From positions 1-64,000 of the forward strand of contig JAFZWQ010000041.1 in the NCBI GenBank assembly GCA_017617235.1: a DNA stretch of 64,000 nt. Reading direction: 5' to 3'. A model generated the notes under the pieces. The model saw only the letters and a list, made by a program, of their open reading frames with translations, had not been told where the DNA came from and did no database searches. The stretch is from Bacteroidaceae bacterium (GTDB lineage: Bacteria; Bacteroidota; Bacteroidia; Bacteroidales; Bacteroidaceae). The position numbers and the translations under genes are program-made. This document shows, piece after piece, positions 9,557 through 61,048 of the stretch (positions are counted from its first letter, which is position 1; every line of letters starts with the position of its first letter).

Positions 9557-10584
9557 CGACGCGGTTTAACAACACGGCGTTGAGGTCCTCCGGCCGGCAT
9601 GACGACTTCGCGCCGCTGGATGACCTCGATTTTCTTTTCGACCTGCTGGTTTTCGCGGAATTCCAAAGGCGATACACGTTCGCCACGGACTTGCACAGGA
9701 TGCTGGGTGGAATCCATAGCCAGAGTGTCCACAACGGCAGTCGCCGTGTCGCCCTCCAGGCGATGATAGCGCAGGAGCACCGGCTTGCGGATGACCCACA
9801 TGCGGAAGGCGTCGTCGCGATTCTCGTCGAAAGCATAATAGAAGGTGCAGGTGATGGACTTTACCCGCTGGTTCCGCAATACGCGGTCGGCAGGAATGTT
9901 CACCGTGGCATCGTAGTCGCCGCTGACCATCATGGCGTTGGCCACTGTAGAGTCGTTGTCGTAACGCACCTGCATGAGCACATAGCCTTCGCGCTGTCCG
10001 TCCTGTACGATGAAACGGTTTCCGCAACGGAACATAAAGTAGTCGCCATCGCGATACGACGTGTCGGCAGGAATAACCAAGGAGTAGAGGTTCTGTTCAC
10101 GGTTGCCATGCAGGAACATAATGTCGTGACCCTGCCAGATGTTGGCGGTGTCGCCCTCAGTAGTGAAACGAGCAAACTTGTCTTCCTCGGGGATGTTCAG
10201 ACCGGCTTCGCGTGACTCGCGTTCCAGACGGGCATCGATACGCCGGTACATATCATCGAGATGGGAAGCATGGCCCGAGTACCACACCATGGAGGTATCG
10301 AACTGTGCCTCGGTGATGTGGTGTTTCTCGAACACTTTCTGCACATAGAGGTAACGATTGGCTTCGACATCGCCACCCTGGGCCTCGGCCATTCCCTGAG
10401 CCAGATGATAGTCGTAGAGGATGCGCTCCATACGGCCTTCGCCAATGACATGGGGAGGAAGTTCTACACTGCAGGAATACAATAAGAGCAAAAGAGCAAC
10501 CCCTACCCCTGTCCCTCCCCGAGGGGAGGGAATGGTTACTTTTTCTAATAACCTGCTTAACTTATTGATAATCCAAGCTATCAT
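9553..10584 (-). CDS. DUF4296 lipoprotein with a repeat-derived signal-peptide segment
   Basis: The protein has 343 residues. The region about 40-130 (PPHVIGEGRMERILYDYHLA, then a helical part with FEKHHIT..QFDTSMVWYSGH) matches the Bacteroidetes family DUF4296. The lipobox is LLYSC with Cys38. The N-terminus is unusual: residues 19-28 (PSPRGGTGVG) come from one half of a REP-like inverted pair, placing Pro, Arg and Gly right before the hydrophobic core. The other half lies upstream of the start codon. It is preceded by lspA, the peptidase that would cleave its signal peptide, and overlaps the next ORF by 4 bp. Function unknown. Confidence 0.82.
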   Translation of the reverse strand: MIAWIINKLSRLLEKVTIPSPRGGTGVGVALLLLLYSCSVELPPHVIGEGRMERILYDYHLAQGMAEAQGGDVEANRYLYVQKVFEKHHITEAQFDTSMVWYSGHASHLDDMYRRIDARLERESREAGLNIPEEDKFARFTTEGDTANIWQGHDIMFLHGNREQNLYSLVIPADTSYRDGDYFMFRCGNRFIVQDGQREGYVLMQVRYDNDSTVANAMMVSGDYDATVNIPADRVLRNQRVKSITCTFYYAFDENRDDAFRMWVIRKPVLLRYHRLEGDTATAVVDTLAMDSTQHPVQVRGERVSPLEFRENQQVEKKIEVIQRREVVMPAGGPQRRVVKPRR

Positions 10585-10634
10585 TCTATATGTCCGTATA
10601 TACGCCCCTCCCGGGAAGGGGATTGGGGATGGGG
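10500..10634. repeat. REPIN-like inverted pair 1 (around the DUF4296 start)
   Basis: The left unit (10500-10530) has a C-rich tail followed by palindrome CCCTCCCCGAGGGGAGGG. The right unit (10605-10634) is the same design on the other strand. The inner spacer is 74 bp and holds the DUF4296 start codon (10584), so the left unit is translated as residues 19-28. Confidence 0.75.
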
Positions 10635-10640
10635 CCTATG

Positions 10641-11291
10641 TCAGATTGTCAGATTCTTGCGGTAGAAAAGGAGCAGGGCGATGATGCCACACGAGATGGC
10701 TGCATCGGCGAAGTTAAAAATGGGGCTGAAGAAAATGAAATGGTTGCCACCACACAGAGGCATCCACGTGGGCCAATCCCATTCGACAAGCGGGAAGTAG
10801 AACATGTCCACTACCCTGCCGTTGAACAACGTGCCATAACCCGAACCAAAGCTGACGAAATCGGCCACCATCGGTGCAGGCGGATTGTTGAAGATGAGTC
10901 CGTAGAAGACACAGTCGACAATGTTTCCTGCCGCACCGGCTATGATAAGGGCCAGACAGGTGAGGTAACCCCACGATATGCCGCGTCGGATGGCACGCAC
11001 CATGTAGATGGCGATGAGCAGGACGAAGATGATGCGGAAAGAAGTGAGCAGGAACTTGTCGAAGAATTCCCAGCCAAAGGCCATGCCGTTGTTCTCCGTA
11101 AAGAGCAGATAGAACCAATCCGTTACACGAATGGACTGGTGGAGATACATACCTGTCTTTACGGCAATCTTTATGGCCTGGTCGATGCCAATGACTGACA
11201 GGATGAGTACAAGGGCCACGACCCCTCTCCTGACCTCCCCCGAGGGGGAGGAAAGGTCACTCTTTTCAATCATTTCTTTCTCTAGTTCCAT
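10641..11291 (-). CDS. lspA: Lipoprotein signal peptidase (signal peptidase II)
   Basis: The 216-residue inner-membrane aspartic protease removes signal peptides from lipoproteins after lipid attachment. Four membrane segments are visible (about 22-41, 83-101, 106-127, 193-211). The two catalytic Asp are D126 in GNIVDCVF and D196 in NFADAAI; the FTENNGMAFG block at 64-73 is also conserved. Length exceeds the usual 160-170 partly because of an insertion between the second half and NFADA (about 133-190), common in Bacteroidetes. Residues 14-23 (SSPSGEVRRG) are encoded by half of a REP-like inverted pair, just before the first membrane segment. It follows a dksA-like gene in the ileS operon. Confidence 0.95.
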   Translation of the reverse strand: MELEKEMIEKSDLSSPSGEVRRGVVALVLILSVIGIDQAIKIAVKTGMYLHQSIRVTDWFYLLFTENNGMAFGWEFFDKFLLTSFRIIFVLLIAIYMVRAIRRGISWGYLTCLALIIAGAAGNIVDCVFYGLIFNNPPAPMVADFVSFGSGYGTLFNGRVVDMFYFPLVEWDWPTWMPLCGGNHFIFFSPIFNFADAAISCGIIALLLFYRKNLTI

Positions 11292-11349
11292 CCTTTATTC
11301 TTTCCTTTTCTATATACTCCCTCCCCCCGGGGAGGGTAAGGGATAGGGG
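11222..11349. repeat. REPIN-like inverted pair 2 (around the lspA start)
   Basis: The left unit 11222-11251 (tail plus palindrome CCTCCCCCGAGGGGGAGG) and right unit 11318-11349 (CCCTCCCCCCGGGGAGGG plus tail) face each other across 66 bp. The lspA start codon at 11291 lies in the spacer, so the left unit encodes LspA residues 14-23. Confidence 0.75.
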
Positions 11350-11352
11350 TAG

Positions 11353-11730
11353 CTACCTTCTGTTCTGTTTTGCCTCAATACTGAGGGTGGCGTGGGGAAC
11401 GGCACGCAGACGTTCCTTGGGAATGAGCTTGCCCGTTTCGCGACAAATACCGTAGGTCTTGTTGTCGATACGAATCAGAGCGGCCTGCAGACCCTGGATA
11501 AACTTCTGGGCACGAGCTGCCAGCTGAATGAGCTGAGCCTTGCTCTGAGCCTCACTACCCTCTTCCAGCGCGTGGAAGGTGGGAGAGGTGTCATCAACAC
11601 CATTTTCGTTGCCCTTCGACAACTCGTCCATCACTTTCTTGTAATCACGTTTTGTCAACTCCAGTTTTTCCAGGATAATCTGACGAAACTCTTCCAGTTC
11701 CTCGTCTGTGTATCGTGTTTTCTCTTCCAT
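11353..11730 (-). CDS. TraR/DksA-family regulator
   Basis: The 125-residue protein matches the TraR/DksA family, which binds the RNA polymerase secondary channel and modulates transcription with ppGpp. The N-terminal coiled-coil part (about 8-90) carries the DDTSPTFHALEEGSEAQ region corresponding to the coiled-coil tip. The C-terminal zinc-finger-like part reads YGICRETGKLIPKERLRAVPHAT. Only one Cys remains (in CRETG); the second CxxC of E. coli DksA is missing, so zinc binding is doubtful. It lies 18 bp after ileS and 61 bp before lspA, in the same direction. Confidence 0.88.
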   Translation of the reverse strand: MEEKTRYTDEELEEFRQIILEKLELTKRDYKKVMDELSKGNENGVDDTSPTFHALEEGSEAQSKAQLIQLAARAQKFIQGLQAALIRIDNKTYGICRETGKLIPKERLRAVPHATLSIEAKQNRR

Positions 11731-11748
11731 GACTTTTAAAAGGAAGTT

Positions 11749-14700
11749 TTAGCGTTTGATATTAATGTTAATTTTATAATCTTCGAAATCGAGTTCCGTG
11801 GGGGACTCTACCTTGTCGACCAACGTCAGGCTGTTCGCCAGCACCTGGGCACTGATGTATTCGCCATACTGGGCAACGGCCTTGTCGGTCTCGGGATTGT
11901 GCTCGAGTTGGATATCGATGCGGTCGGTTATCTCGAATCCGCTTTCCTTGCGCAGGTTCTGGATGCGCTTCACCAATTCGCGGGCTACACCCTCGTACTT
12001 CAGTTCATCGGTAACGGTGATGTCCAAAGCCACAGTCAGTGAACCCTCGTTGGCAACGGTCCAGCCGGGAATATCCTCGCTGAAGATTTCCACATCCTCG
12101 GCCTCGATGAGGGCTACATCGCCGGAGGCAAGCGTGACATTCAGGCTACCCCGTGACTCCAGTTCGGCAATCTGGTCCTGAGACAGGGCCGTTACGGCGG
12201 CATTCACGTCCTTCATGAGCTTGCCAAACTTCTTACCCATGGTGCGGAAGTTGCACTTTACCTTCTTCACCAGGATGCCACTACCCTCGACAAACTCGAG
12301 TTCCTTGACATTCACCTCGTCCAGGATAAGCTGCTTCATGGCTTCGATGCGCTGTTGCTGGTCGTTGTCGAGTGCGGGGATTGCAATCTTCTGCAAGGGC
12401 TGGCGCACGATGATTTGCTCCTTCTTGCGAAGCGAAAGCACCATAGACGTAATCTGCTGGGCCAGTTCCATGCGGCTTTCCTGTTCCTTGTCGATTTTGC
12501 TATCGTCGGCAACAGGGAACTGTGCCAGATGTACGCTCTCCGTATCGCGGCCTGTGGCCTCTGTCAAATCGCGATAGAGGCGGTCGGCATAGTATGGAGC
12601 GATGGGAGCCATCAACTTGGCCACAGTCTCCAGACAGGTATAAAGGGTCTGGTAGGCCGACAACTTGTCGATGCTCATGGCCGAGCCCCAGAAACGCTTA
12701 CGGCTGAGACGGACGAACCAGTTCGATACATTGTCCACAACAAACGATTGGATGAGACGTCCGGCACGTGTGGGTTCGTAGTCCTCGTAACAATTGGTAA
12801 CCTCGAGAATCAAGGAGTTCAGTTCGGAAAGTATCCAACGGTCCATTTCGGGACGCTGTGTCATGGGAACATCGGGTTCCTCGTAGCACCAGTCATCTAC
12901 GTTGGCATACATGGTCAGGAACGAATAGGTCTGGAACAGTTTGCCGAAGAATGAACGGGTAACTTCCTTCACGCCTTCTTCGTCGAACTTCAGGTTGTCC
13001 CAAGGCTGAGAGTTGGTAATCATGTACCAACGAACGGCATCGGAGCCATAGTTTTCGATAGCCTGGAAGGGGTCAACGGCATTACCCAGACGCTTCGACA
13101 TCTTCAGCCCGTTCTTGTCCAAGACGAGACCGTTGGAAATAACGGCCTTATAGGCTACGGAGTCGAAAATCATGGTAGCAATGGCATGCAGCGTGAAGAA
13201 CCAGCCACGTGTCTGGTCCACGCCCTCGGCAATGAAGTCCGCAGGATATGGAAGATTGAAGATTGAAGATTGAAGATTTGGTTTTCCATTTTCAATATTC
13301 AATTTTCCTTTTTCAATTTCAAAAGGATAATGTATCTGGGCATAAGGCATGGCACCCGAATCGAACCACACATCGATGAGGTCGAGTTCGCGCTTCAGCA
13401 CAGCACCGCTTTTGCCCACAAGCCAAATCTGGTCGACATAGGGACGATGCAGGTCGATGCGGTCGTAGTTTTCCTGCGACATATCGCCGGGAATGAAGCC
13501 ACGCTCCTTCAGCGGGTTGCTGGGCATGATGCCGGCAGCAACGGACTTTTCAATCTCCATGTACAGTTCCTCGACAGAACCGATGCAGATTTCCTCCTTC
13601 GTCTCGCGGTTACGCCAGATGGGCAGCGGAGTACCCCAATAGCGGCTGCGGCTGAGGTTCCAGTCGTTCAAGTTCTCCAACCATTTGCCGAAACGACCGG
13701 TTCCCGTGGATTCGGGTTTCCAGTTGATGGTCTTGTTCAGTTCCATCATGCGTTCCTTGGCAGCTGTGCTGCGGATGAACCACGAATCGAGGGGATAGTA
13801 TAGCACGGGCTTATCCGTACGCCAGCAGTGGGGATAGTTGTGGACGTGCTTCTCAATCTTGAAAGCACTGCCCTCCTGCTTCATCTCCATGCAGAGTACG
13901 ATATTCAGGTCTTCGGTCTTGGCAAGGGCTTTCTCGTCCAGACCGGCATACTGAGGATCGTAAGCATTCTTCACGAAGTCGCCGGCATGATGCCAATAAC
14001 TATCGTTGACACAAGTAGCAACGAAAGTCTCGTCCATATCCTCCTTCACAAAGTACTTACCTGTGAAGTCCACCATGGGACGCGTGTCGCCAGCCTTGTC
14101 GATAACGAACAGCGAAGGAATACCAGCATCCTTGGCCACCTTGGCGTCATCCGCACCAAACGTGGGAGCAATGTGTACAATACCCGTACCATCCTCGGTG
14201 GTAACATAGTCGCCAGGGATAACACGGAACGCATCGGCAGTCTTGTCGACGACCTTGCCGTTTTCCAAAGCACAGGGCTTCACCCAAGGGAAGAGTTGTT
14301 CGTACTCCATACCCTCGAGGTCTGTACCCTTACCACGCCAAACGATTTCGAGTTCCGTTCCTTCTGCTGCCTGGAAATAGGCGGAGAGACGTGCCTCAGC
14401 CAGTATGTAGATGGCCTCCTCCTTTGTATAGGGGTTCTGACCCTTCACAGCTACATAGTCGATCTTGGGTCCTACGCACAGAGCGGTATTCGAAGGCAAA
14501 GTCCAAGGCGTCGTTGTCCATGCTAATATATACACAGAGGGCACAGAGGAGGCAGAGTACTCAGAGCATTTTTTGTAGTTCTCCATTATGGTTTTTATCA
14601 TCTCTGTGCTCTCTGTCTTCTCTGTGTACTCTGTGCGCAACCGGAACTGTGCTGTAACGGTTGTGTCCTTCACATCGCGGTAGCAACCGGGCTGGTTCAA

Positions 14701-15285: not shown

Positions 15286-15325
15286 ATATTGATATGCTTT
15301 TTGTTATCTTTCTTATTTAGGTGCG

Positions 15326-34269: not shown

Positions 34270-37200
34270 ATGGAGCCTCGATTCTTACTATTTAAAGCAT
34301 CAGCAGGCAGCGGAAAAACCTATAATCTGGCCATTCAGTACATCGCGCTGCTACTCGCCAAAGGCGAACACGAATTTCGACACACGTTGGCAGTCACCTT
34401 CACCAACAAGGCAACTGCCGAAATGAAAGACCGCATCCTTCAGTTCCTCTACGACATGTGGAAAGGAATGCCCAAAAGCGAGGAGAAGGTTGCGGACACC
34501 CAAAAAGTGCTGGAAAAATTGCATCAGAAGAAGATGACGGACGAGGAAGTTCGTCAGCATTGCCACTATGCTCTCAGCGCCATCTTACACGACTACAGCA
34601 GATTCTACGTTTCCACTATCGATGCTTTCTTCCAAGGGGTGCTTCGCAGCATGGCACACGAGCTGGGACTAACCGCCCGACTGCAAGTCGATATTGACGA
34701 CAAGACCATCATCGAGTTGGCTGTCGAGAACCTGATCGACGACCTACGGAACGACAATCGCGATGTATTGCCCTGGCTCAGCAGTTACATCGAACAGCAA
34801 ATGATGGAGAACAAGCCATGGGATGTGCGGCAAGAATTGAAAAAGATGGCTCGAATGCTCTTCCAAGAGGAATACCTGAAGCGTTCACTTAACGACGAGA
34901 ACCGACCTTTTAACATTGAAAATATCGGACATTTTCGCAAATTGTTACAATCCGAACGAGAGAACCTCATCATCCCCGTTCAGCGCGAAGCCGACAAATT
35001 CGAAGACATCTTGCACAACACGGGAGGCGACTACGAGGAGCTCCTTAATTACAGTTCCGACATTCAACACTATGTTAGCTACATGAAGGCGGGTAATATG
35101 GAGGCGAGTTACGGGAAGCGACTACAAGATTTGACAGCCGATTCTGTTAAGATGCTGAAGGCCCCGTTGCGCAAGGACACATCGCTCCACCCCATTGCCC
35201 AGCAATTGGCAGCACAGCTCAACATCATCCACCAGCAACAAGAACTGGCCGCACGACGCATCGGCAGCATCGACCTGGCTCTGGCCAACCTGACACCCAT
35301 GGGACTGTTTGGAGCCATAGACAACGAGATTAGCCGTTTGTCGAACGAGCGCAACCGTTTCATGCTGGCCCACACCCCTATCATGCTACGTCGGATGATT
35401 CAGGGCGAGGATGCCTCGTTCGTATTCGAGCGAATCGGCACTCAGTACAACAACATCATGATTGACGAATTCCAGGATACCAGCCGCCTGCAATGGGAGA
35501 ATTTCCGCACCCTGCTCATCGACAATCTGGCTTCTGGCGGGTTCAGCATGATTGTGGGCGACATCAAGCAAAGTATCTATCGTTGGCGCAATGGCGACTG
35601 GCACATCCTTCACGAACTGGACTTGCACGGACACAACGGCATACCCGTTATCCACAATCCGCTGGACAAGAACTTCCGGAGTTTGGGAAACATCGTCAAC
35701 TTCAACAACTGGCTGTTCCCCCTAGCCGCGAAGGCGCTGGACAAGCTCGCCGGAGAGGAGAGCCATCACCTATCGGACCTTTATTCCGACAAAGGGCAAA
35801 TCGTCACTAAAGATAAGGACAGCGGGTACGTGCGTATACAAATCTGTCACAGCACGGAAAAAGCCGTTGCAGCGGCCTGGGAGGAAAACATGCTGGCCGA
35901 CCTTTGTCAGCAAGTAGAGCTACTGAAGGCAGGCGGAGTTGCATACAAGGATATGACCATTCTGCTGCGAAAGAACCGCTATATCCAACCCACCATTGCC
36001 TATTTTGCCGAACATCTGCCCCATGTGCGCTTGGTCAGCAATGAGGCCTTCCTGCTGGGTTCTTCCATCGCCGTAAAGATGATTGTATGTGCCCTGCAAG
36101 TTGTTGACGATATCGAACGCGACCCTGTGGCACTATACTATCTGGCCGACCAATATCGCCAACACGTCTGCAAACAAACAGGCATAATCCCTGCCGGCAT
36201 CCAAGAAGACTACCTGAAGCTATTGCCCGACAGCTTTACGGAAAACCTCAACGAACTGCGCTGTCTGCCACTCTACGAGTTATGTGAAAAGATTTACCGC
36301 TTACTCGACCTCGACAAAATTGCCGACAGGCAGGATGCATTCCTGTTCACCTTCTTCGACGAACTGTCTGCCTATCTGCGCGAGAATCCGTCAGACATTC
36401 CTACCTTCATTCAATATTGGAACGAAAAGATGCAGACAACGCCCATCCCCAACGGCGAGGTCGATGGCATACGCATCTACACCATCCACAAGTCGAAAGG
36501 GTTGGCCTTCCACACGGTGCTGATGCCCTATGCCGACTGGGACATCGAAAGGGATATGGCAAGCGACCTGTATTGGTGCAAGCCACATGAAGCGCCCCTC
36601 AACGAGATGGGGTCGTTGCCCATCCGATTCACGTCAAAGAAAATCAAGGGAACGGCCTTCGAGCAAAACTACAAGGACGAACACATCAACAGACGGGCCG
36701 ATGAACTGAACACCCTGTACGTCGCCTTCACCCGTGCCAAGGAAAACCTGCTGGTATGGGGATTGAGCAAGAGCAATATGGATTGCGAGAAGCAAGACGA
36801 GAACATTGCCGACCTGCTCTACAAAATACTGAAAGGTGAGGCCCCCGCCGAGGAAGAACTTTTCACCTACGAACCCTATGGGGCCTATAAGGCCCATGAG
36901 CCACATGAGGCCCATGAAGCCAATGAGCCCTATAAGCAAGTAACCATGTGCTCCTACGAGGGCAACCTGCAATTCCGCCAAAGCGGACAGGCTACGGAGT
37001 TCATCAAACAGGCAGGCGAGGAGGCCATCGACACCCAGACACTTTCCTACATCGAACAGGGCAAACTGCTGCACTATGTTTTCAGTCAGATAGAGACTGC
37101 ACAGGACATAGAACGCATTACCAACCAATTTGCCCAACAAGGGATATTGCAGTCAGCCAAACAACTGCAGCAGGTCCGCGACCTGGCCGCTCGCGGTCTT

Positions 37201-37521
37201 CGCAACACACGGGTTCAGGATTGGTTCTCGGGCCGCTACCAGCTATTCAATGAGTGCAACATCCTCATACCCGACCCCGAAAACCCAGGAAAGCTGCTGA
37301 AGAAACGCCCCGACCGTGTAATGATGTCCGAAGAAAGAATCATCGTGGTGGACTTCAAGTTCGGAAAGCCCAACGAGGATTACCACGAACAAGTGAGAGA
37401 ATACATGCGGATTCTGCAGAGCATGTATCCCACCAAGCAGGTCGAAGGTTGGCTGTGGTATGTCTATAGTAATAAGATAGAGGCGACCCCTCCCCCAACC
37501 CCTCCCGAGGGCGGGGGGTGA
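34270..37521 (+). CDS. addA: AddA/UvrD-type helicase-nuclease
   Basis: The 1083-residue protein is a superfamily 1A helicase with a C-terminal nuclease, as in AddAB double-strand break repair. Motifs: Walker A ASAGSGKT at 10-17, motif Ia VTFTNKAT, Walker B IMIDEFQDTS at about 396-405, GDIKQSIYRWR (motif III), IYTIHKSKGLAF (V) and LYVAFTRAKENL (VI). A RecB-like nuclease core is at about 1010-1045 with VVDFKFGKPNEDYHEQV. The start cannot be further downstream because Walker A begins at residue 10. Residues about 868-889 (AYKAHEPHEAHEANEPYK) come from a CATGAGGC-type repeat, and the last 11 residues (TPPPTPPEGGG region) from half of a REP-like pair that also supplies the stop. It is followed by addB-like after 49 bp. 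Confidence 0.92.
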   Translation: MEPRFLLFKASAGSGKTYNLAIQYIALLLAKGEHEFRHTLAVTFTNKATAEMKDRILQFLYDMWKGMPKSEEKVADTQKVLEKLHQKKMTDEEVRQHCHYALSAILHDYSRFYVSTIDAFFQGVLRSMAHELGLTARLQVDIDDKTIIELAVENLIDDLRNDNRDVLPWLSSYIEQQMMENKPWDVRQELKKMARMLFQEEYLKRSLNDENRPFNIENIGHFRKLLQSERENLIIPVQREADKFEDILHNTGGDYEELLNYSSDIQHYVSYMKAGNMEASYGKRLQDLTADSVKMLKAPLRKDTSLHPIAQQLAAQLNIIHQQQELAARRIGSIDLALANLTPMGLFGAIDNEISRLSNERNRFMLAHTPIMLRRMIQGEDASFVFERIGTQYNNIMIDEFQDTSRLQWENFRTLLIDNLASGGFSMIVGDIKQSIYRWRNGDWHILHELDLHGHNGIPVIHNPLDKNFRSLGNIVNFNNWLFPLAAKALDKLAGEESHHLSDLYSDKGQIVTKDKDSGYVRIQICHSTEKAVAAAWEENMLADLCQQVELLKAGGVAYKDMTILLRKNRYIQPTIAYFAEHLPHVRLVSNEAFLLGSSIAVKMIVCALQVVDDIERDPVALYYLADQYRQHVCKQTGIIPAGIQEDYLKLLPDSFTENLNELRCLPLYELCEKIYRLLDLDKIADRQDAFLFTFFDELSAYLRENPSDIPTFIQYWNEKMQTTPIPNGEVDGIRIYTIHKSKGLAFHTVLMPYADWDIERDMASDLYWCKPHEAPLNEMGSLPIRFTSKKIKGTAFEQNYKDEHINRRADELNTLYVAFTRAKENLLVWGLSKSNMDCEKQDENIADLLYKILKGEAPAEEELFTYEPYGAYKAHEPHEAHEANEPYKQVTMCSYEGNLQFRQSGQATEFIKQAGEEAIDTQTLSYIEQGKLLHYVFSQIETAQDIERITNQFAQQGILQSAKQLQQVRDLAARGLRNTRVQDWFSGRYQLFNECNILIPDPENPGKLLKKRPDRVMMSEERIIVVDFKFGKPNEDYHEQVREYMRILQSMYPTKQVEGWLWYVYSNKIEATPPPTPPEGGG
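36871..36935 (+). repeat. CATGAGGC-type direct repeat inside addA
   Basis: Units such as GGCCCATGAG, CCACATGAGG, CCCATGAAGCC and AATGAGCCC repeat about every 10-12 bp, translated as AHEPHEAHEANEP. They lie between helicase motif VI and the nuclease domain, where a flexible linker is tolerated. Confidence 0.6.
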
Positions 37522-37632
37522 TTAGGTTAATGGCTTAGAGGCTTAGTAGGTTAGTAGATTATAGAGAGATATGAACATAAGAAAAGCGGATAATGATAAC
37601 GCCCTCCCCTCGGGGAGGGATAGGGGTAGGGG
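37487..37632. repeat. REPIN-like inverted pair 3 (between addA and addB)
   Basis: The left unit (37487-37518) encodes the last residues of AddA; the right unit (37602-37632) encodes AddB residues 11-21 (ALPSGRDRGRG). The units face each other across 83 bp that contain the AddB start codon. Confidence 0.75.
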
Positions 37633-40417
37633 TCATCAGTTCCTATATTATGTAGCCCAGGACCTGATTGGGCGATATGGCAACAACCTGTCGGGTGTAA
37701 CGATTGTCTTTCCAGGCAAGCGTGCCCAGTTGTACATGAACTCATTCCTGTCGCACATTGCACAGGGCCCCGTTTGGGCACCACGTTTCAAGACCATCGA
37801 CGAACTGTTCCAGCAATTCTCACCCCTCACGCCCAGCGACAACATCCTGAATGTGTGCCGCCTCTATCGGATATATGCCGAATTGGCCCCCAATCCCGAA
37901 CCGCTGGACACGTTCTACAGTTGGGGCGAAATACTGATGAATGACTTTGGCGACATCGACAAACATCTGGTGGATGCCAACAAACTGTTTGCAAACACAG
38001 CCGACCTGTTGGCAATGGACCGGGTGGACTACCTCAATGACAAACAAATCGAGGCGCTACACGACTTCTTCACCGACTTCGACCCAGAGAAACAGACCAA
38101 ACTGAAACAGCGCTTCATGGAGATGTGGCAGCTGATGCCCGAAATGTATCGCAGACTGAAGGAAGACCTGCGCCGCGACGGCCTGATGTATAAGGGTGCG
38201 CTCTACCGCGAAGTGGCAGAGCACCTCCCCCTACCCCCTCCCAAGGAGGGGACACGTCCTATTGAAGTAGAAAACATGGCGGCTCATGCCCCCTCCCTCG
38301 GAGGGGGACGGGGGAGGTTCTGTTTCGTGGGCTTCAATGTGCTGGACGAGGTCGAGGAATGCCTGTTCCAAGCCCTGAACGAATCGGGACAGGCGCTCTT
38401 CTATTGGGACTACGATGTGTATTATGCAGCCAAGAACAGCACGCACGAGGCCGGACAGTTCCTGCGTCACAACCTGGAACAATTCCCCTGTGCCCTGCCC
38501 GACGATATTTACGACAACCTCATCGACCCCAACAAGCAAATCCATATCTTTTCGGCCAGCACCGACAATGCCCAGGTGCGCTACCTGGCCCAGTGGGTGC
38601 AGGAAAGGCCGGAAACAGGAACAGCCGTTGTGCTGTGCGACGAAGCGCTGATGCGCCCTGCCCTGCACGCCCTGCCCGATGACACGAAGGTGAACATCAC
38701 CATGGGCTACCCACTCACGGACACAGCCATCTACGGCTATTTCTCAAGCCTTATCGACCTGCAGGTGAATGGGTTCAACGCCGACCTCAATCGTTTCCTG
38801 GCGACAGCCCAGGAGCGTGTCGAGAAGAATGCTTTCTTCGCCACCTTCCCACAGGAGCAGCTACCCCTGCAACACCAAACCGATACACTCGCCCTTGTCG
38901 ACTGGCTGCTGGCCGCAACGGAGGCCCTGGGCAAATCGCTCTCCGAAACAGAGGCACCCTCGCCCTACGACCAGTTGTATGCCGAAAGTGCGTTCCAACT
39001 GTACAAGATTCTGGGACAGTTCCGATGGCTCATCACAGAAGGCACCCTCCAGGTCAGCCTCATCACCCTGCGCCGCCTCATCCGCCAGGCGTTGCAGTCG
39101 GCCAGCATCCCCTTCCATGGCGAGATGGACGAAGGCATTCAGGTAATGGGTCTCCTGGAAGCGCGCAATCTGGACTTCACTCACCTGATTATGCTATCTG
39201 TAGGCGAAGGTGTCATCCCCAGACGTTCCACCGACGTTTCCCTCATACCTTATATACTTCGTGCCCATTTCGGACTCGACACCGTCGAGCGTCAGGATTC
39301 CGTATATGCCTATTCCTTCTACCGTCTGTTGCAGCGGGCCCAGGACATCACCTTGGTGTACAACGAGAACAGCAGCGGAGCCACGCAACGCGAACAGAGC
39401 CGTTTCCTGCGCCAGCTCGTCATCGAGACCAACCTCAACATCGAACAGGCAAAACTGGATGCACCTTTCTCCCTGCCACCACAGGAGCCCATCTCCATCG
39501 AGAAGGATGAACACATCATGGACATCCTCTATCAAAAGCGCAGCCTTTCGCCCACGGCCATCAACCAATACATCGACTGCCGGCTGAAATTCTATTTCCA
39601 GTATGTGGCCCAGTTGCGCATGCCCTATCGGCCGCAGGACGGCATCGATGCACCCACCTTCGGCACCCTGTTCCACGACACCTGCGAAAAATTCTATCGC
39701 CAGTTGCGCGAAAAGACGGGACGCAAACAGGTGCTGTGCTCCGACCTCGAGCCCTTTGTGCAGACACCCGCGCTGCTCGCGCCCTACCTCGACGAGGCAT
39801 TTGGCGAAATCCCCAGCGCCACGGGCGTAAACATGATTATCCGCAATGTCATCACCCACATGGTGCTCCAGTTACTGCAATGGGATATGGCACACACGCC
39901 CTTCACCATCTATGACTTGGAAATCGACGCATACACCCCGCTAACCTTCAAATCCGCTGGTCGGGAAATCAGGCTGTCCGTGGGCGGACGCATCGACCGC
40001 ATGGACATCATGCCCATCGACGGGCGCCCCACCCTGCGCGTCGTCGACTATAAGACAGGAAAGTCGAAAGGTAACCTGGCAGGCATCGAGGCCATTTTCG
40101 ACAGTGCTTCGTCCGGCCCCCATGGCTACTACCTGCAAACCTTCCTCTATTCGCTCATCATGAGTCGCAAACAGGAACTGCCCGTCAGCCCGTGCCTCTT
40201 CTATGCCCTCGCGGCTACAGATGCCCAAGGCTACGACCCCACCCTGAAGTTTGGGAAAGACGCCATTACCAACATATCGGAATATGCCGAGGCCTATTGG
40301 GAGGGACTAAGCCGTGTGCTGACGGAAATCTTTAACCCTGCCATTCCGTTTACCCAACAGACAGAAGACCAGAAACGCTGTCAATATTGCGACTTTGCCC
40401 GGCTGTGTGGAAAATAG
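37571..40417 (+). CDS. addB: AddB-like helicase-nuclease subunit
   Basis: The 948-residue protein has an N-terminal inactive-helicase-like part (VTIVFPGKRAQLYMNSFL at about 40-57), a HLIMLSVGEGVIPR block at about 535-550, and a C-terminal PD-(D/E)XK nuclease with LRVVDYKTGKSKG. Cysteines fit the AddB iron-sulphur staple: one in YIDCRLKFYFQ at about 675 and three in KRCQYCDFARLC at the end. Together with AddA it would process DNA ends for recombination. Residues 11-21 and about 218-250 are encoded by two REP-like inverted pairs (SLGGGRGRF and PLPPPKEG segments). The stop is followed by a short stem-loop at 40418. Confidence 0.9.
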   Translation: MNIRKADNDNALPSGRDRGRGHQFLYYVAQDLIGRYGNNLSGVTIVFPGKRAQLYMNSFLSHIAQGPVWAPRFKTIDELFQQFSPLTPSDNILNVCRLYRIYAELAPNPEPLDTFYSWGEILMNDFGDIDKHLVDANKLFANTADLLAMDRVDYLNDKQIEALHDFFTDFDPEKQTKLKQRFMEMWQLMPEMYRRLKEDLRRDGLMYKGALYREVAEHLPLPPPKEGTRPIEVENMAAHAPSLGGGRGRFCFVGFNVLDEVEECLFQALNESGQALFYWDYDVYYAAKNSTHEAGQFLRHNLEQFPCALPDDIYDNLIDPNKQIHIFSASTDNAQVRYLAQWVQERPETGTAVVLCDEALMRPALHALPDDTKVNITMGYPLTDTAIYGYFSSLIDLQVNGFNADLNRFLATAQERVEKNAFFATFPQEQLPLQHQTDTLALVDWLLAATEALGKSLSETEAPSPYDQLYAESAFQLYKILGQFRWLITEGTLQVSLITLRRLIRQALQSASIPFHGEMDEGIQVMGLLEARNLDFTHLIMLSVGEGVIPRRSTDVSLIPYILRAHFGLDTVERQDSVYAYSFYRLLQRAQDITLVYNENSSGATQREQSRFLRQLVIETNLNIEQAKLDAPFSLPPQEPISIEKDEHIMDILYQKRSLSPTAINQYIDCRLKFYFQYVAQLRMPYRPQDGIDAPTFGTLFHDTCEKFYRQLREKTGRKQVLCSDLEPFVQTPALLAPYLDEAFGEIPSATGVNMIIRNVITHMVLQLLQWDMAHTPFTIYDLEIDAYTPLTFKSAGREIRLSVGGRIDRMDIMPIDGRPTLRVVDYKTGKSKGNLAGIEAIFDSASSGPHGYYLQTFLYSLIMSRKQELPVSPCLFYALAATDAQGYDPTLKFGKDAITNISEYAEAYWEGLSRVLTEIFNPAIPFTQQTEDQKRCQYCDFARLCGK
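38223..38318. repeat. REPIN-like inverted pair 4 (inside addB)
   Basis: The left unit is at 38223-38251 and the right unit at 38289-38318, in opposite orientation with a 37-bp spacer. All 96 bp are translated in frame (32 residues), between REVAEHL and CFVGFNVLDEVEE, which are normally adjacent strands. Confidence 0.75.
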
Positions 40418-40440: not shown

Positions 40441-40453
40441 GGAGGCATCTCGG

Positions 40454-40588
40454 CAATATCTAATATATGAAGAGAACAGCTATGCTGTCTGGTCTTATCG
40501 GCCCTGATGCCGCCATGCATAAAATTAATCATGCAAGCACGTTATTTTCATGCATGACGACATTTATCTCTTCATATATTTGGTATTG
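40454..40588. repeat. 135-bp inverted-repeat element upstream of tRNA-Arg
   Basis: Arms at 40454-40475 and 40567-40588 match at 20 of 22 positions, with a perfect 13-bp inner part (ATATATGAAGAGA). Inside are ACAGC/GCTGT (40476-40488), CGGC/GCCG (about 40499-40513) and an imperfect CATGCATAAAAT / ATTTTCATGCATG arm pair (about 40514-40556). It codes for no protein. It could be a miniature inverted-repeat element or a structured RNA; I see no clear target-site duplication. Confidence 0.65.
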
Positions 40589-40610
40589 CGCTCGATTTTC
40601 ACTACCTTTG
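40579..40610 (+). promoter_or_regulatory. Promoter of tRNA-Arg
   Basis: TTTG (40579-40582), 20 bp, TACCTTTG (40603-40610) is a full consensus promoter; the tRNA begins 16 bp downstream. The -33 box lies in the right arm of the inverted-repeat element. Confidence 0.7.
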
Positions 40611-55855: not shown

Positions 55856-56550
55856 TTCATTAAAACATTTTTCGGTTTCACTGCCACAAACTCTTTCAGA
55901 TAGAAAGGTTCGCTATAGGCTACATCAGTATATTCCGCACGCACATAACGCCGTTCGGCCAAAGGATACATATACTTTGCCAACGGGTTAATATCGTCGA
56001 GGAAGCGGGCATTGGGATGCTGAATCACGGTTCGTAACTTATTACTGCCGTCGCCAAAGAAGTAGACAGGCCCACGGTCCAGGTATTCGCGATAGGTATC
56101 GCCATCCACCACGTCGGCCTGAATGCCACGAACGGGTTTCAAAGCCCTGTCGTAAACAGCACTGTACACTTCCATACGCCGTGCATCGATAGTGGGGACC
56201 AACAAAGCATCGTCTTCCAACTCGCCGCGATACAGCAACACCGGCACACACATAATCTCCAATGTGGGCAGGGCTATCAAGGGGATGTTGTAACCATAAC
56301 AAACGCCCTTGGCCATTGAATATCCAATACGCAAACCCGTGTAACTGCCAGGTCCCTCGCTTATGGCCACAGCATCCACGGGAATGGCGTGGCTGTTGGC
56401 AAACGAAAGGGCGTTCTCGACAAACACGCCACAGCGTGTAGCGTGATTCGGGCCTTCGAAATCTGCCTCCTCAAATAAGCATGCTCCATTCTCACTCAGA
56501 GCCACGGAACAAACCTTTGTACTAGTCTCAATATGTAATATGCAAGACAT
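55852..56550 (-). CDS. tsaB: tRNA threonylcarbamoyladenosine biosynthesis protein TsaB
   Basis: The 232-residue ASKHA-fold protein is the partner of TsaD in making t6A37 in tRNA. I chose the ATG at 56550 (MSCILHIETST), since the seven residues before it lie beyond the promoter-near region. Motifs: ILHIETSTKVCSVAL, VDAVAISEGPGSYTGLRIG. It is the first gene of an eight-gene operon ending at cca, starting 19 bp after a TATCTTTG box. Divergent from yicC. Confidence 0.92.
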   Translation of the reverse strand: MSCILHIETSTKVCSVALSENGACLFEEADFEGPNHATRCGVFVENALSFANSHAIPVDAVAISEGPGSYTGLRIGYSMAKGVCYGYNIPLIALPTLEIMCVPVLLYRGELEDDALLVPTIDARRMEVYSAVYDRALKPVRGIQADVVDGDTYREYLDRGPVYFFGDGSNKLRTVIQHPNARFLDDINPLAKYMYPLAERRYVRAEYTDVAYSEPFYLKEFVAVKPKNVLMK

Positions 56551-56568
56551 TTCTTTCCAAATTGTTGG

Positions 56569-56576
56569 CAAAGATA
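56569..56576 (-). promoter_or_regulatory. Promoter -7 box of the tsaB operon
   Basis: The minus strand reads TATCTTTG, 19 bp upstream of tsaB. The divergent yicC promoter box is 13 bp away, so the two promoters overlap. Confidence 0.7.
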
Positions 56577-56588
56577 CAAAATAATTTG

Positions 56589-56596
56589 TATTTTTG
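56589..56596 (+). promoter_or_regulatory. Promoter -7 box of the yicC operon
   Basis: TATTTTTG with TTG at 56565-56567, 21 bp upstream. The ATG follows after 25 bp. Confidence 0.6.
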
Positions 56597-56621
56597 CACC
56601 ATAAAATGCTGAAATAACATT

Positions 56622-57500
56622 ATGATACTATCAATGACGGGGTACGGCAAGGCTTGTGTCGTATTCAACGGAAAGAAGATAACGGCTGAAATAAAGTCGT
56701 TGAACAGTAAATCGTTAGACCTCTCGACACGCGTAGTTGCGATGTATCGCGAAAAGGAAATGGAGATTCGCAACATGATTTCCACAGCTTTGGAACGTGG
56801 AAAGGTTGAATTCAACCTGTGGACAGAAACGGAAGCCGCCACACAGGCTGCTTCTATCAACGGGGCTGTTGCCGAGAACTATCGCAAACAGATACGCCAC
56901 ATCTGTGGCCAATATGGCATGCCCGAACCCGAAAACTGGTGGGGATTGCTGATGCGCCTGCCCGATGTGGTGTGTCGCGAAGAGGCGGTTGCAGAACTTA
57001 CCGACGAAGAATGGAGTGTGGCTCGCGGTGTCATTGAGCAAGCCATCCAACAGCTTGTGGATTTCCGCAAACAGGAGGGTTTGGCCCTGCAGCATAAGTT
57101 CGAGGAGAAACTCGACAACATAGCCCAACTCATGGCAGCCATCGAACCCTTCGAGAAGGGACGTGTGGAGAAGATTCGCCAGCGGCTTGAAGAGAATCTG
57201 GAGAAAATCAAGACTGTCGAATACGACCGTAACCGTCTGGAACAAGAGATGATATACTACATCGAGAAGCTGGACATCAACGAGGAAAAGCAACGTTTGG
57301 CCAACCACCTCCGCTATTTCCGCGAAACGATGGCCGACGGACACGGTCAGGGAAAGAAACTTGGTTTCATTGCTCAGGAGATGGGACGCGAGATAAACAC
57401 CACCGGTTCGAAGTCGAACGAAGCCGAGATGCAGAACATCGTTGTCCGAATGAAGGACGAATTGGAGCAAATTAAGGAACAAGTATTAAATGTAATGTAG
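56622..57500 (+). CDS. yicC: YicC-family endoribonuclease-like protein
   Basis: The 292-residue protein opens with the family signature MILSMTGYGKACVVFNGKKI, then LNSKSLDLSTRV, and ends with the conserved ANHLRYFRETM and GFIAQEMGREINTTGSKSN blocks. YicC proteins act in RNA decay in E. coli and bind or cut small RNAs. It is the first gene of an operon with gmk, one base before its start. Confidence 0.95.
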   Translation: MILSMTGYGKACVVFNGKKITAEIKSLNSKSLDLSTRVVAMYREKEMEIRNMISTALERGKVEFNLWTETEAATQAASINGAVAENYRKQIRHICGQYGMPEPENWWGLLMRLPDVVCREEAVAELTDEEWSVARGVIEQAIQQLVDFRKQEGLALQHKFEEKLDNIAQLMAAIEPFEKGRVEKIRQRLEENLEKIKTVEYDRNRLEQEMIYYIEKLDINEEKQRLANHLRYFRETMADGHGQGKKLGFIAQEMGREINTTGSKSNEAEMQNIVVRMKDELEQIKEQVLNVM

Positions 57501-57501
57501 G

Positions 57502-58071
57502 ATGCAAGGACGTTTGTTAATTTTCAGCGCGCCCAGCGGTAGCGGAAAGAGTACCATTGTACAGTACCTGATGCAGGAACACCCCGAATTTAACCTAGCT
57601 TTCAGCATCAGCGCCACCAGTCGTCCCCCACGTGGAAAGGAACAGGACGGGGTGGAATACTTCTTCCTGTCGCCCGAAGAATTCAAAAAGAAGATAGGAG
57701 ACAACGAATTCCTGGAATACGAGGAAGTATATCAGAATCGTTTCTACGGCACCCTGAAGAGCCAAGTGGAACGACAGTTGGCAGCTGGACAGAATGTAGT
57801 TTTCGACGTCGATGTCAAAGGAGGTTGTAATATCAAACAGTTCTATGGCAACCGCGCCCTCAGCATTTTCATCCAACCACCATCGGTCGACGAACTGCGT
57901 CGCCGTCTGGTGAGTCGTGCTACAGACGATGCCGAACAAATCGAACGTCGGTTAGCCAAAGCCGAAGAAGAGATGTCCTATGCCCCACGCTTCGACAAAA
58001 TACTGGTCAACGACGATTTGGAGACTGCCAAAGCAGAAGCCGTAACCTTGCTAAACGATTTCTTGAAATGA
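57502..58071 (+). CDS. gmk: Guanylate kinase
   Basis: The 189-residue enzyme phosphorylates GMP to GDP. P-loop PSGSGKST at 11-18, GMP-binding SRPPRGKEQDGVEYFF at 34-49, and VVFDVDVKGGCNIKQ. It pairs with yicC, as in many bacteria. Confidence 0.97.
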   Translation: MQGRLLIFSAPSGSGKSTIVQYLMQEHPEFNLAFSISATSRPPRGKEQDGVEYFFLSPEEFKKKIGDNEFLEYEEVYQNRFYGTLKSQVERQLAAGQNVVFDVDVKGGCNIKQFYGNRALSIFIQPPSVDELRRRLVSRATDDAEQIERRLAKAEEEMSYAPRFDKILVNDDLETAKAEAVTLLNDFLK

Positions 58072-58250
58072 CGAATTTACGACTAACCGGTTTTCTGATT
58101 ATGGGACTTGCCCTCACCATGGGCATCATCCTCTGGTTCATGCACGAAAAGGAATGGGCCGCCATGCTTTTTGTGCTGGCCCTGTTACAGGCTCTCATCA
58201 TTGTGCTCAATTGGAACAAAGAGCGTAAGCGCAAACGATACAGCAAATGA
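58068..58250 (+). CDS. Small two-helix membrane protein
   Basis: The 60-residue protein has hydrophobic segments at about 7-25 and 30-47, then the basic tail NKERKRKRYSK. It overlaps gmk and nadD by 4 bp on each side (ATGA), which strongly supports translation. No known family is recognised. Confidence 0.75.
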   Translation: MTNLRLTGFLIMGLALTMGIILWFMHEKEWAAMLFVLALLQALIIVLNWNKERKRKRYSK

Positions 58251-58822
58251 GAATAGGCATCTTCGGCGGATCTTTCAATCCCATCCACACTGGCCATATC
58301 CGGCTTGGCGAATCGCTGTGCCGCAAGGGTTGGGTGGACGAATTGTGGTTTTTGGTATCCCCACTAAACCCGCTGAAGCAAACATCCACCGACTTGCTGG
58401 CCGACGAGGCTCGTCTCCATTTAGCCGAACTTGCAGTCCAGGGGAAGCCCCATCTGCAAGTTTCCGACTTCGAAATGCATCTGCCGCGTCCCTCGTATAT
58501 GGTGCGTACACTCGAACTGTTGCGTAGTCAGCATCCCACCGACGAATTTCTGCTCGTCATTGGAGCCGACAACTGGCTGCGTTTCCCCCAATGGCGCGAC
58601 AGTCAGGAAATATTACGCCACCATCGCATTCTGGTTTATCCCCGACCCGGCTATATAATCGACATCAACACTCTGCCGACAGGCGTGCAGGCCGTCGATA
58701 CTCCCCTATTCGATATCAGCTCCACCCAAATCCGTCAAGCTATCCACCAAGGCAGTTATCGCGGACGTGGACTGAATCCCAAAGTATGGAAAGAAATTAA
58801 ACAAAAACAATATTATCTATGA
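58247..58822 (+). CDS. nadD: Nicotinate-nucleotide adenylyltransferase
   Basis: The 191-residue enzyme adenylates nicotinate mononucleotide in NAD synthesis. The nucleotidyl-transfer motif is GGSFNPIHTGHIRLGE at 7-22, and the C-terminal DISSTQIR motif (about 163-170) binds ATP. It overlaps both neighbours by 4 bp. Confidence 0.96.
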   Translation: MRIGIFGGSFNPIHTGHIRLGESLCRKGWVDELWFLVSPLNPLKQTSTDLLADEARLHLAELAVQGKPHLQVSDFEMHLPRPSYMVRTLELLRSQHPTDEFLLVIGADNWLRFPQWRDSQEILRHHRILVYPRPGYIIDINTLPTGVQAVDTPLFDISSTQIRQAIHQGSYRGRGLNPKVWKEIKQKQYYL

Positions 58823-59487
58823 AACGCATTGCACTTATCCTTTTTCTTTTGACATTTGCCGTTAGTCGCGAACAGAGTTCGCTCCACGCCCAGCGCACAC
58901 CGTTGGAGAAATACGAACTGGCTCCTGGAGGATTCGAAAACGTGTACATCGACCATGTCAAAGGGTTCGCCAGCCACACCATCGACATTGGCGACAACCA
59001 GTACCTGGGTCAGGTGTCGCGCGACCACCAGTTCTATGGATACGGGATGTTCATCAACGGCGACGGTTCACTCATTATTGGTAAATTCCGCGACAGCCAG
59101 CTTTTGTTCGGCATCACGCTGACACAGACAGGTGCCGTAGTGGGCAATCAGGCCAACCACGCAGCTTACAGCCTCACCAGCGGACGACTGGAATATATCA
59201 TCCGCAACGGAGAAAAACTGCTGCCCGAACAACTATCGACGCTTGATTATGGTTTCGTAACCATGAAATACAGCAACGGCGATCAGTATGTGGGTGAGGT
59301 CTATCAGCGCAAGCGTCACGGCTATGGTATTTACTACTATCGCAACGGCGACTTCTGGTTTGGCGAATACGACGGCGACATCCGCAATGGTTTCGGTGCG
59401 TATTTCACCGTCGATGGCGACATCCAAATCGGCGAATGGCAGGGCGAGGATGAAAAACGCGTCATCCAAGTCAAGAAGCGCCGCTAA
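58819..59487 (+). CDS. Secreted MORN-repeat protein
   Basis: The 222-residue protein has a signal peptide ending near LHA-Q (24-25). MORN-type repeats (YxGxxxxGxxxGxGxxxxxxG) appear at about 72-98 and more clearly at 155-215: NGDQYVGEVYQRKRHGYGIY, NGDFWFGEYDGDIRNGFGAY. MORN repeats often bind lipids or act as scaffolds. It is last in the yicC operon. Confidence 0.85.
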   Translation: MKRIALILFLLTFAVSREQSSLHAQRTPLEKYELAPGGFENVYIDHVKGFASHTIDIGDNQYLGQVSRDHQFYGYGMFINGDGSLIIGKFRDSQLLFGITLTQTGAVVGNQANHAAYSLTSGRLEYIIRNGEKLLPEQLSTLDYGFVTMKYSNGDQYVGEVYQRKRHGYGIYYYRNGDFWFGEYDGDIRNGFGAYFTVDGDIQIGEWQGEDEKRVIQVKKRR

Positions 59488-59499
59488 GCAAAATCCGAT

Positions 59500-60987
59500 T
59501 TATTTTCCTTCGTAAGCTCCTGCATCGGGCTCTCCGTCGGCCAAACGGCTGACGCCACGTCTGTCGATGGGGAAGAGTTTACTATACTCAGAATCTGCCA
59601 GACCACGAATGGCAGAGAGGGAATCTGGTGCAAAGTCGTAAAGGAAATTGTCCGTATCAAAGAGGACGAAATGGTCCTTACCAGTAACCTCCAACGAATC
59701 GGGCAGGTCGTATCGTATGTCCACGAAACGCGAGTCGTCGGACACGACGGTGCGCAACAGTGAGTTCTGGAACAGAAAATCGACATCATCGAAGGTATTT
59801 TCCGCCAGATTTCCCATCACCACATCGTCGGCATAGCCCGTAATGACACAGTTTACGAAGTAGCACCACAGCAGCGGACGATAGATGTCCTCTCCCTCCA
59901 TATCTGCCATATAGAGGGCGTCGTCGCGACTGGCAGAGAGGGGATAGAACTGAGCAATGGTGCAGTGGACAAAGACGTGTGCCCCACCCTCGATGTCGAC
60001 ACAGCGGCCCAGGGTGTTACTGATTTGGGTACCCGTAACCTGTGTGCGGCAATGGGTGAATACCAGACCTGGGCCTCCAATGTTGTGGACGATACAGTCC
60101 TCCATGAGCAGCAACGGGTCGCTATCCTCCGTCAGGGCAGTGCTGTCGCAGATGATGCCATAATCTCCACTATGTATGTCGCATTGTGTCAGTTCGTTGT
60201 TCTTGGAATCAGCAAAGAAATGGACACCTCCCCAACGGTTGGGTGTGTTGTCGTAGGGTAGATAGGGGAACATACGGTCTGTGCGATCACCCCGCAAGGT
60301 TACCGGCTGCGCCAGCGTACCGTTGGCTTTCAACGTACCATGAACCAGTAACGAGGTTTGGTCGTGGAACATGAGGGTGCAGCCCTGGGGCAGCGTGAGC
60401 GTGACGCCTGAAGCCACCACCAACGAGTCGTATATGACGTAAGGACGTTGGGCATCGAGGATACGGTCGGACGTAATGGTTTCGCCACGCAGGACGATGA
60501 CATCCATTCCAGAAGCTGTAAGCACGACCTTTTGCTGGACTCCGCTTTCCAACGTAAAGAGCAACTGATCCTCAAAGTCACGGATGGCATCGCTGTCGGC
60601 ATCGGGTAACAACACCTCAATACGAACGTAGATGCTGTCCTTGCGTCGGACCTCGAAGTCCTCCCCCACTCCAGCAGCTAGATACTGCCCATCGACATTG
60701 ATGCGGAAATGCGAGGCGGCACCCTGAGCCAACTCTACCCGACTGATGCGCAGTCCTTTGTCATTATCGTTGTGGACAATAAGGGTCTTGGTGGCTGAAC
60801 CCTGTTGCGTAATAATAGTGTCGAACGCCACCGTATCTGCAGACAGCGTCAGCTGCGCCGTTGGTGCCGTCGTCCACGAATCGTAGTCATCGCACGAGAT
60901 AAGCAGGAACGCCAAAAGCAACCCCACCCCCAATCCCCTCCCGAGGGAAGGGCGTATATACTTTTGTAGTTTATCTATTAAAAGCAT
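59500..60987 (-). CDS. Right-handed beta-helix lipoprotein
   Basis: The 495-residue lipoprotein has Cys32 in the lipobox LISC. The first domain (about 40-150) is Ig-like (LTLSADTVAFDTIITQQGSA). A right-handed parallel beta-helix (about 175-450) follows with GVTLTLPQGCTLMFHDQTSL and repeating short strands such as GGPGLVFTHCRTQVTGTQIS. Residues 12-22 (RPSLGRGLGVG) are encoded by half of a REP-like inverted pair, so the repeat forms the junction to the hydrophobic core, as in the DUF4296 lipoprotein. Substrate or ligand is unknown. Confidence 0.85.
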   Translation of the reverse strand: MLLIDKLQKYIRPSLGRGLGVGLLLAFLLISCDDYDSWTTAPTAQLTLSADTVAFDTIITQQGSATKTLIVHNDNDKGLRISRVELAQGAASHFRINVDGQYLAAGVGEDFEVRRKDSIYVRIEVLLPDADSDAIRDFEDQLLFTLESGVQQKVVLTASGMDVIVLRGETITSDRILDAQRPYVIYDSLVVASGVTLTLPQGCTLMFHDQTSLLVHGTLKANGTLAQPVTLRGDRTDRMFPYLPYDNTPNRWGGVHFFADSKNNELTQCDIHSGDYGIICDSTALTEDSDPLLLMEDCIVHNIGGPGLVFTHCRTQVTGTQISNTLGRCVDIEGGAHVFVHCTIAQFYPLSASRDDALYMADMEGEDIYRPLLWCYFVNCVITGYADDVVMGNLAENTFDDVDFLFQNSLLRTVVSDDSRFVDIRYDLPDSLEVTGKDHFVLFDTDNFLYDFAPDSLSAIRGLADSEYSKLFPIDRRGVSRLADGEPDAGAYEGK

Positions 60988-61048
60988 ATCCGTAATAGTA
61001 ATGAATATGTAATCACTCCCCTCCCCTCGGGGAGGGTTAGGGAAGGGG
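60922..61048. repeat. REPIN-like inverted pair 5 (around the beta-helix lipoprotein start)
   Basis: The left unit 60922-60952 and right unit 61016-61048 are in opposite orientation, 63 bp apart. The start codon at 60987 lies between. The inner flank GTATATAC next to the left unit is shared with pair 1 (10597-10603 region). Confidence 0.75.

Follow-up and report, generated by a model that had tools for sequence, protein, structure and literature searches.

Repetitive extragenic palindromic sequences (REPs) and miniature inverted-repeat transposable elements (MITEs) are commonly regarded as extragenic passengers. Here we describe a family of short hairpin doublets, first noticed in a 64,000-nucleotide stretch of DNA from a Bacteroidaceae bacterium (assembly GCA_017617235.1, contig JAFZWQ010000041.1, positions 1 to 64,000; the whole stretch is hereafter the window), which lie mostly between co-directional genes and often appear to carry the start codon of the downstream gene. 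The doublets probably represent a non-autonomous mobile element family, similar to REP doublets forming hairpins (REPINs), that has been co-opted as portable operon junctions. The window belongs to a 2.54-Mb draft genome (hereafter the source genome) with 50 contigs and a completeness of 85.5%.

The comparisons that follow refer to the available portions of the cited papers. The family shares with the REPINs of Pseudomonas an inverted doublet with conserved ends, a less conserved spacer and a predicted hairpin, as well as many copies and compensatory changes (PMC3116915); the source genome also has a candidate gene of the REP-associated tyrosine transposase (RAYT) type. REPINs are mainly extragenic (in SBW25, 14 of 1,067 core 16-mers overlap genes), whereas here the downstream start codon lies within 21 of the 30 junction doublets, and a further 7 doublets are intragenic (PMC3116915). 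Also unlike REPINs, the RAYT-like gene has no flanking repeat and the halves have a C-rich tail rather than a GTAG foot (PMC3116915). The original prediction, made from the window alone, had likened the pairs to REPINs; the likeness extends to the inverted doublet, the hairpin and the copy number. Because neither a predominantly extragenic position nor a RAYT gene flanked by its cognate repeat was found, the family is not classed with the REPINs.

GTAG/CGTC REPs of other phyla lie near upstream stop codons and at N-termini, the N-terminal ones often being judged non-coding (PMC3733652). They have in common with the present family the proximity to stop codons, termini that may supply the stop, copies in DNA-repair genes and positions at N-termini; they differ in that unidirectional and convergent positions are both common, whereas here no doublet of the source genome is convergent and the excess of in-frame copies is strong (PMC3733652). 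The Rickettsia palindromic elements, compared by description, are likewise palindromic, roughly 100–150 bp long and in frame within unrelated genes, and N-terminal cases are reported to be expressed; placement at a junction with a start codon on board is not described in the available portions (PMC10969869, PMC3733652). Among the open-licence papers listed, none was found to describe translated, start-codon-carrying REPINs in Bacteroidetes or a family that fills operon junctions and brings the start codon of the next gene.

Architecture and abundance of the doublets

From the outside inward, each half consists of an [A/G]CCCC-rich tail of the ACCCCTACCCC type, 2–3 bases, an 18-nt hairpin and then often AGTATATAC or a variant of it. 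The GTAG tetranucleotide is absent from the 5' stem foot; the word occurs only in the reverse complement of the C-rich tail. The stem variants CCCTCCCC, CCTCCCCC and CCCCTCCC each come with matching 3' arms, and the stems covary, with 20 cells changed on both sides against 6.0 after shuffling (0 of 500 shuffles) and at most 3 in slid registers. A related hairpin pattern matched 61 times genome-wide, compared with 4 matches for the reversed control.

A genome-wide profile built from 29 halves gave at least 96 half matches at E ≤ 0.05 among the 150 of 662 candidates that were scored. Using 95 of 149 profile matches from 40 stretches, with weak and partial or overlapping opposite-strand matches left out, 37 doublets of 90–214 nt (median 130) and 21 unpaired halves were assembled; one partial match dropped in locus L125 may partner a half counted as single. 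The tails point outward in all 37 adjacent half pairs spanning less than 260 nt and no other orientation occurs, so that the orientation, which had been named as a check on the prediction, is non-random. A design with two unlike ends per element (an A half with a B or C half) was rejected, as 9 like pairs were observed against 11.5 expected (p 0.23, 33 of 37 doublets typed). Two pairs of inward-facing halves, one at L113 (2501–2995) and one at L125 (2501–2983), are separated by some 490 nt of other sequence.

The family is widespread in the genus, matching in 114 of 139 genomes at E ≤ 0.001 (half matches being counted among the best 46 scored candidates per genome), and matches in 1 of 16 genomes of the same order outside the genus. 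A second hairpin family, CCTCCCTNNNAGGGAGG, was found in 89 of the 139 genus genomes (for example at loci L295–L302), the reversed control matching in 1 of 139. It reaches 170 sites in one genome (G154), has none in the source genome and occupies the junction of pair 5 (see below) in several relatives.

Doublets occupy co-directional gene junctions

The genomic contexts of the doublets were assigned by hand with a purpose-written, simple codon-usage gene finder. Of the 37 doublets in the source genome, 30 separate genes that run in the same direction and 7 are intragenic; no convergent or divergent junction holds one. Background gene pairs away from the elements comprise 110 co-directional, 17 convergent and 16 divergent pairs, with 9307, 3678 and 5225 intergenic bases, respectively. 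The co-directional excess (30/30 against 110/143) has a p value of 0.0015; the Fisher tests assume independent elements, an assumption violated by shared insertions. For 27 of the 30 junction doublets, the last base of the upstream stop codon falls somewhere from 2 nt within the element to 6 nt ahead of it; in the other three, the upstream gene ends at element base 37 (two cases) or 37 nt away (one case). A comparison set of 60 regions from six relatives, picked among the best-scoring listed places and not at random, was searched with the profile (161 of 162 matches used) and yielded 57 doublets, 48 of them co-directional, 1 convergent, 2 divergent, 5 intragenic and 1 at an edge.

These counts correct the view that the pairs sit mainly in genes, as 30 of 37 fill co-directional junctions against the upstream stop codon. 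Among the intragenic copies is a compact 90-nt doublet (L105, 2501–2590; G000:C8:20140-20229) that maintains an open frame within a gene we take to be radA. Together with a copy in addB (pair 4, below), this gene provides another instance of repair genes carrying intragenic copies, as with the REPs in the available part of PMC3733652.

Putative start codons and N-termini encoded by the doublets

The junction doublets fall into two classes. In class I (21/30), an ATG in the spacer is in frame with the downstream gene and the frame stays open through the inner half; the other two frames would satisfy this in 3/30 and 1/30 (p 6e-10). In class II (9/30), the first ATG lies 8–19 nt past the element. 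The relatives reproduce this pattern, with 32 of 48 doublets in class I (control frames 0 and 2) and an ATG 3–18 nt past the element in 15 of the other 16. The spacers are AT-rich, with a mean G+C of 28% in class I and 27% in class II; their lengths are 43–96 nt and 67–78 nt, respectively, and several are mutually similar as judged by eye. The spacer start codon and open inner half claimed for the window thus recur both genome-wide and in the six relatives, and we infer that the element-borne starts are used in class I genes.

The encoded peptide differs with the reading frame. Ahead of strongly hydrophobic segments it is mostly PSLGRGxGVG or PSPRGGxGVG; otherwise the half is read as SPSGEVGRG, PLPREGQGGG and similar peptides. 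In the source genome, Asp and Glu are missing from the half-coded stretch in 8 of the 11 cases that precede hydrophobic segments and in 0 of the 10 others (p 0.001), a test framed after these peptides had been viewed; the relatives, an independent set, gave 8 of 11 versus 4 of 21 (p 0.006). The frame used therefore tends to fit the destination of the protein. By reading of the sequences, some members of the hydrophobic group would be Rossmann-type strands of soluble enzymes.

The five pairs of the window

The five pairs and the genes that they adjoin are as follows.

10499 to 10635, reverse strand: pair 1, doublet separating the lspA stop codon from the DUF4296 lipoprotein gene, whose start codon lies in the spacer at 10584; the inner half translates as TIPSPRGGTGVG
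11220 to 11350, reverse strand: pair 2, doublet between an upstream gene (11353-11730) and lspA, whose start codon lies in the spacer at 11291; the inner half translates as SSPSGEVRRGV
37485 to 37633, forward strand: pair 3, doublet between addA and addB; addB start codon 37571 in the spacer, inner half read as ALPSGRDRGRG
38221 to 38319, forward strand: pair 4, weak, diverged doublet within addB, translated through in frame
60921 to 61050, reverse strand: pair 5, doublet separating an M20 peptidase gene from a beta-helix lipoprotein gene, whose start codon lies in the spacer at 60987; the inner half translates as YIRPSLGRGLGVGL
9553 to 10584, reverse strand: DUF4296 lipoprotein gene (Pfam DUF4296, E 2.4e-24); N-terminus encoded by pair 1
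10641 to 11291, reverse strand: lspA, signal peptidase II (Pfam Peptidase_A8, E 7.7e-30, domain from residue 30); N-terminus encoded by pair 2
34270 to 37521, forward strand: addA-like gene (UvrD-type helicase); its C-terminus, ATPPPTPPEGGG, comes from pair 3
37571 to 40417, forward strand: addB-like gene (PDDEXK_1); contains pair 4 and takes its N-terminus from pair 3
59500 to 60987, reverse strand: beta-helix lipoprotein gene; signal-peptide n-region encoded by pair 5

All five predicted pairs were recovered, four of them with strong scores from a 42-position half profile built partly from window copies. Both halves of pairs 1 (10499-10540/10595-10635), 2 (11220-11261/11309-11350), 3 (37485-37526/37592-37633) and 5 (60921-60962/61008-61050) score 33–57 bits (E 1e-13 to 4e-7), and these four pairs have the start codon in the spacer and an inner half open in frame. 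Pair 4, wholly inside addB, is weak by profile (halves 38221-38261 and 38281-38319, 15.4 and 13.6 bits, E 0.023 and 0.07) and forms a 35-nt inverted repeat that is 83% complementary. Allowing up to 3 mismatches, the window contains 16 copies of the core CCCTCCCCGAGGGG, compared with 4.2 ± 1.9 in shuffled sequence, and none of 100 shuffles reached 16. The addA frame reads into the outer half of pair 3 and has its stop codon there, and the stop of the M20 peptidase gene, at 61051, abuts pair 5. The gene upstream of pair 2 is presumably dksA-like. An unrelated inverted repeat at 40453-40589 has 23-nt arms, 91% complementary, with 91 nt between them.

Orthologous junctions lack the doublets or carry other versions

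In element-free relatives, the downstream gene has a native start shortly after the upstream stop codon. This is the case for lspA in G138, G145, G016 and G133 among others, as well as in G013, G020 and G046; for the DUF4296 lipoprotein gene in G148, G138 and G016 among others, which have no doublet; and for addB in G145, G016, G133 and G085 among others. Other relatives have filled or partly filled junctions: G148 carries a degenerate relative of the element at lspA, G133 and G013 have doublets at the DUF4296 gene, and G120 has a single degenerate half at addB. The pair 5 junction is filled in G119 and G120, has other stem sequences in G138, G016, G127 and G148, and is bare, with short native signal peptides, in G092, G136 and G022. 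The pair 4 insert is absent from the addB orthologs compared. With empty sites seen at the species level and other versions at the same junctions, the doublets look like inserted mobile DNA. Repeat-free orthologs already bearing the same residues had been named as evidence that would speak against the prediction; those compared lack the repeat-encoded residues.

At the sites compared, the source genome has neither the native start nor the first native codons; the AddB N-terminus, natively M-R/K-P-FLYY, has become MNIRKADNDNALPSGRDRGRGHQFLYY. For the gene whose protein contains ...KYFPHTADD, the source genome has a class II doublet where G127 and G148, at the same site, have one of class I, and the change appears to have run from class II to class I. 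The idea that the spacer is native start DNA flanked by two insertions was set aside because native AddB has just 3–4 residues ahead of its conserved region; the spacer-coded residues are also unlike native N-termini, and several spacers are alike. Short tandem repeats fill the same junctions in some relatives (GGATTAGGGATTAGG at lspA in G145, GAGAATGAGAAA at the DUF4296 gene in G055 and TTTAGAG at addB in G120), and a short tandem repeat, TTCTCATTCTCTCAT, codes for the signal peptide in G046 and G087 (loci of these junctions: L145, L144, L174, L276 and L272).

A RAYT-like gene as candidate mobiliser

The prediction had noted the lack of a transposase in the window; a candidate lies on another contig and is tied to the elements only by correlation. 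Pfam Y1_Tnp gave no match over its cut-off in the source genome, and a weak match to it led to a RAYT-like gene, a 388-aa frame (G000:C29:42968-44134) with the motifs PDHIH and YMAENP (HuH and YxxNP type). The protein scores 40.7 bits (E 2.1e-10) against the NCBIfam REP-associated tyrosine transposase NF047646, below the curated 80-bit cut-off, and is also below the Pfam cut-offs. A profile search of solved structures with it had IS200-type transposases as its best hits, aligned along some 20 residues of the HuH segment at E 0.034 or worse. A partial second copy and a fragment lie on contigs C33 and C32, a homolog with 69% identity occurs in a Bacteroidaceae metagenome-assembled genome from goat omasum, and homologs, some with stop codons, were found in 95 of the 139 genus genomes.

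The protein shares HuH-type DHIH and YxxNP-type motifs with TnpA_REP/RAYT of the Bacteroidetes subclass 2.6; Bacteroidetes members with atypical flanking structures are on record in the available part of PMC6006769. It differs from them in an extra conserved C-terminal region and in its sub-threshold score (PMC6006769). This region, past YxxNP, is strongly conserved among the RAYT-like proteins (L016, 1264-2430, and homologs) and has no Pfam match over cut-off; from its letters it may be SLOG/DprA-like.

Across the genus, the median number of first-family elements is 19 in genomes with a RAYT-like homolog versus 3.5 in those without (p 1e-7; no phylogenetic correction, unlisted genomes entered as zero). 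For the second family, the medians are 9 with and 0 without a homolog (p 2e-6, Spearman 0.52, again uncorrected), and the link among 15 hand-picked close relatives has p 0.007. An arrangement of the REPtron kind was sought and not found. A half at E < 1e-5 accompanies the gene at three of 30 RAYT loci in the genus, always at a distance of some hundreds of nucleotides or more. We infer mobilisation by the RAYT-like protein, which is a likely but unproven mobiliser of the doublets.

Weighing the explanations

In the proposed mechanism, a copy consists of two inverted halves, each a C-rich tail plus a covarying hairpin, with the tails outward and an AT-rich spacer between. Copies would settle between co-directional genes right behind the upstream stop codon. 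In class II, the ATG of the downstream gene would remain 8–19 nt beyond the element; in class I, the spacer ATG would take over with an open inner-half frame and the native start would be lost, so that the downstream protein would gain an element-encoded N-terminus tending to suit its destination. A more far-reaching version, which we put forward tentatively, is that the doublet may be a mobile module for translation initiation. Such a transposable hairpin doublet would target stop/start junctions in operons, terminate the upstream gene and provide the gene downstream with a new initiation region, a start codon and a destination-compatible N-terminal peptide (a signal-peptide n-region or a soluble leader), repeatedly rewriting gene starts across the genus while stem families replace each other at the same junctions.

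Several observations weigh against these readings. One of the 48 doublets of the relatives fits neither class, and the relatives hold the one convergent and two divergent doublets mentioned above. The destination rule is truly broken by lspA and L202, in which acidic residues precede clear hydrophobic segments. The predicted folds leave the whole ATG unpaired in just 5 of 21 class I cases, and therefore no open start codon is demonstrated. No element-mediated transposition was seen in the compared junctions, and a target duplication is unreadable there because the native DNA has been lost. As for the mobiliser, the copy-number correlations are uncorrected for phylogeny, G077, G087 and G072 have 35–46 scored half matches without a RAYT match while G109 and G129 show the reverse, and the RAYT-like gene has no flanking doublet, just a degenerate half of 14.3 bits that overlaps its 3' end.

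The placement beside stop codons, the in-frame starts and the choice of frame might simply reflect passive survival, in which insertion is random, purifying selection in a gene-dense genome leaves copies only where they are tolerated, and no host function is involved. Tolerated copies must leave both neighbours intact, and the retained downstream ATG of class II and the 7 copies persisting within genes fit this. We consider it unlikely, given that convergent and divergent gaps make up about half of the intergenic bases (3678 + 5225 of 18210) and ought to accept insertions, yet 0 of 30 intergenic doublets of the source genome lie there, and that the same junction is refilled by different stem families across species. 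It is distinctly unlikely, in our estimation, that the doublet is a cis-regulatory cassette, a long RNA hairpin behind the stop codon and around the next start region, kept for translational coupling or mRNA stability in operons with the N-terminal peptide incidental. Covarying stems and co-directional placement would suit such a role, as would predicted folding: the 30 junction elements have energies of −41 to −79 kcal/mol, and in 29 of them at least half of the outer half pairs with the inner half around the spacer; these folds had no shuffle control, however, and any pairing doublet would fold so. A pure RNA role would also not need a frame choice that follows the destination of the protein.

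There is a slim chance that the starts are misassigned and translation begins past the elements, the inner halves being 5' untranslated, as the available part of PMC3733652 suggests for many REPs located at annotated N-termini. Such starts exist in the 9 class II doublets, and GTG or TTG starts might serve as well. Misassignment would not produce the in-frame excess over the other frames, though, and for 13 of the 21 class I doublets another ATG is reached more than 60 nt beyond the element or not at all within 300 nt; several lipoproteins would, moreover, lose their signal-peptide n-region. A REPIN-like family of portable operon junctions thus remains the probable explanation.

Implications for the genus

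The REPIN-like family appears to take over the initiation regions of many genes, including the housekeeping genes lspA and addB and two others that we take, from their N-terminal sequences, to be gpsA and coaD. If this is true, mobile DNA would be a source of protein N-termini and signal peptides, and the odd N-terminal extensions annotated in this group would be accounted for. The choice of insertion site versus selection would then become directly testable.

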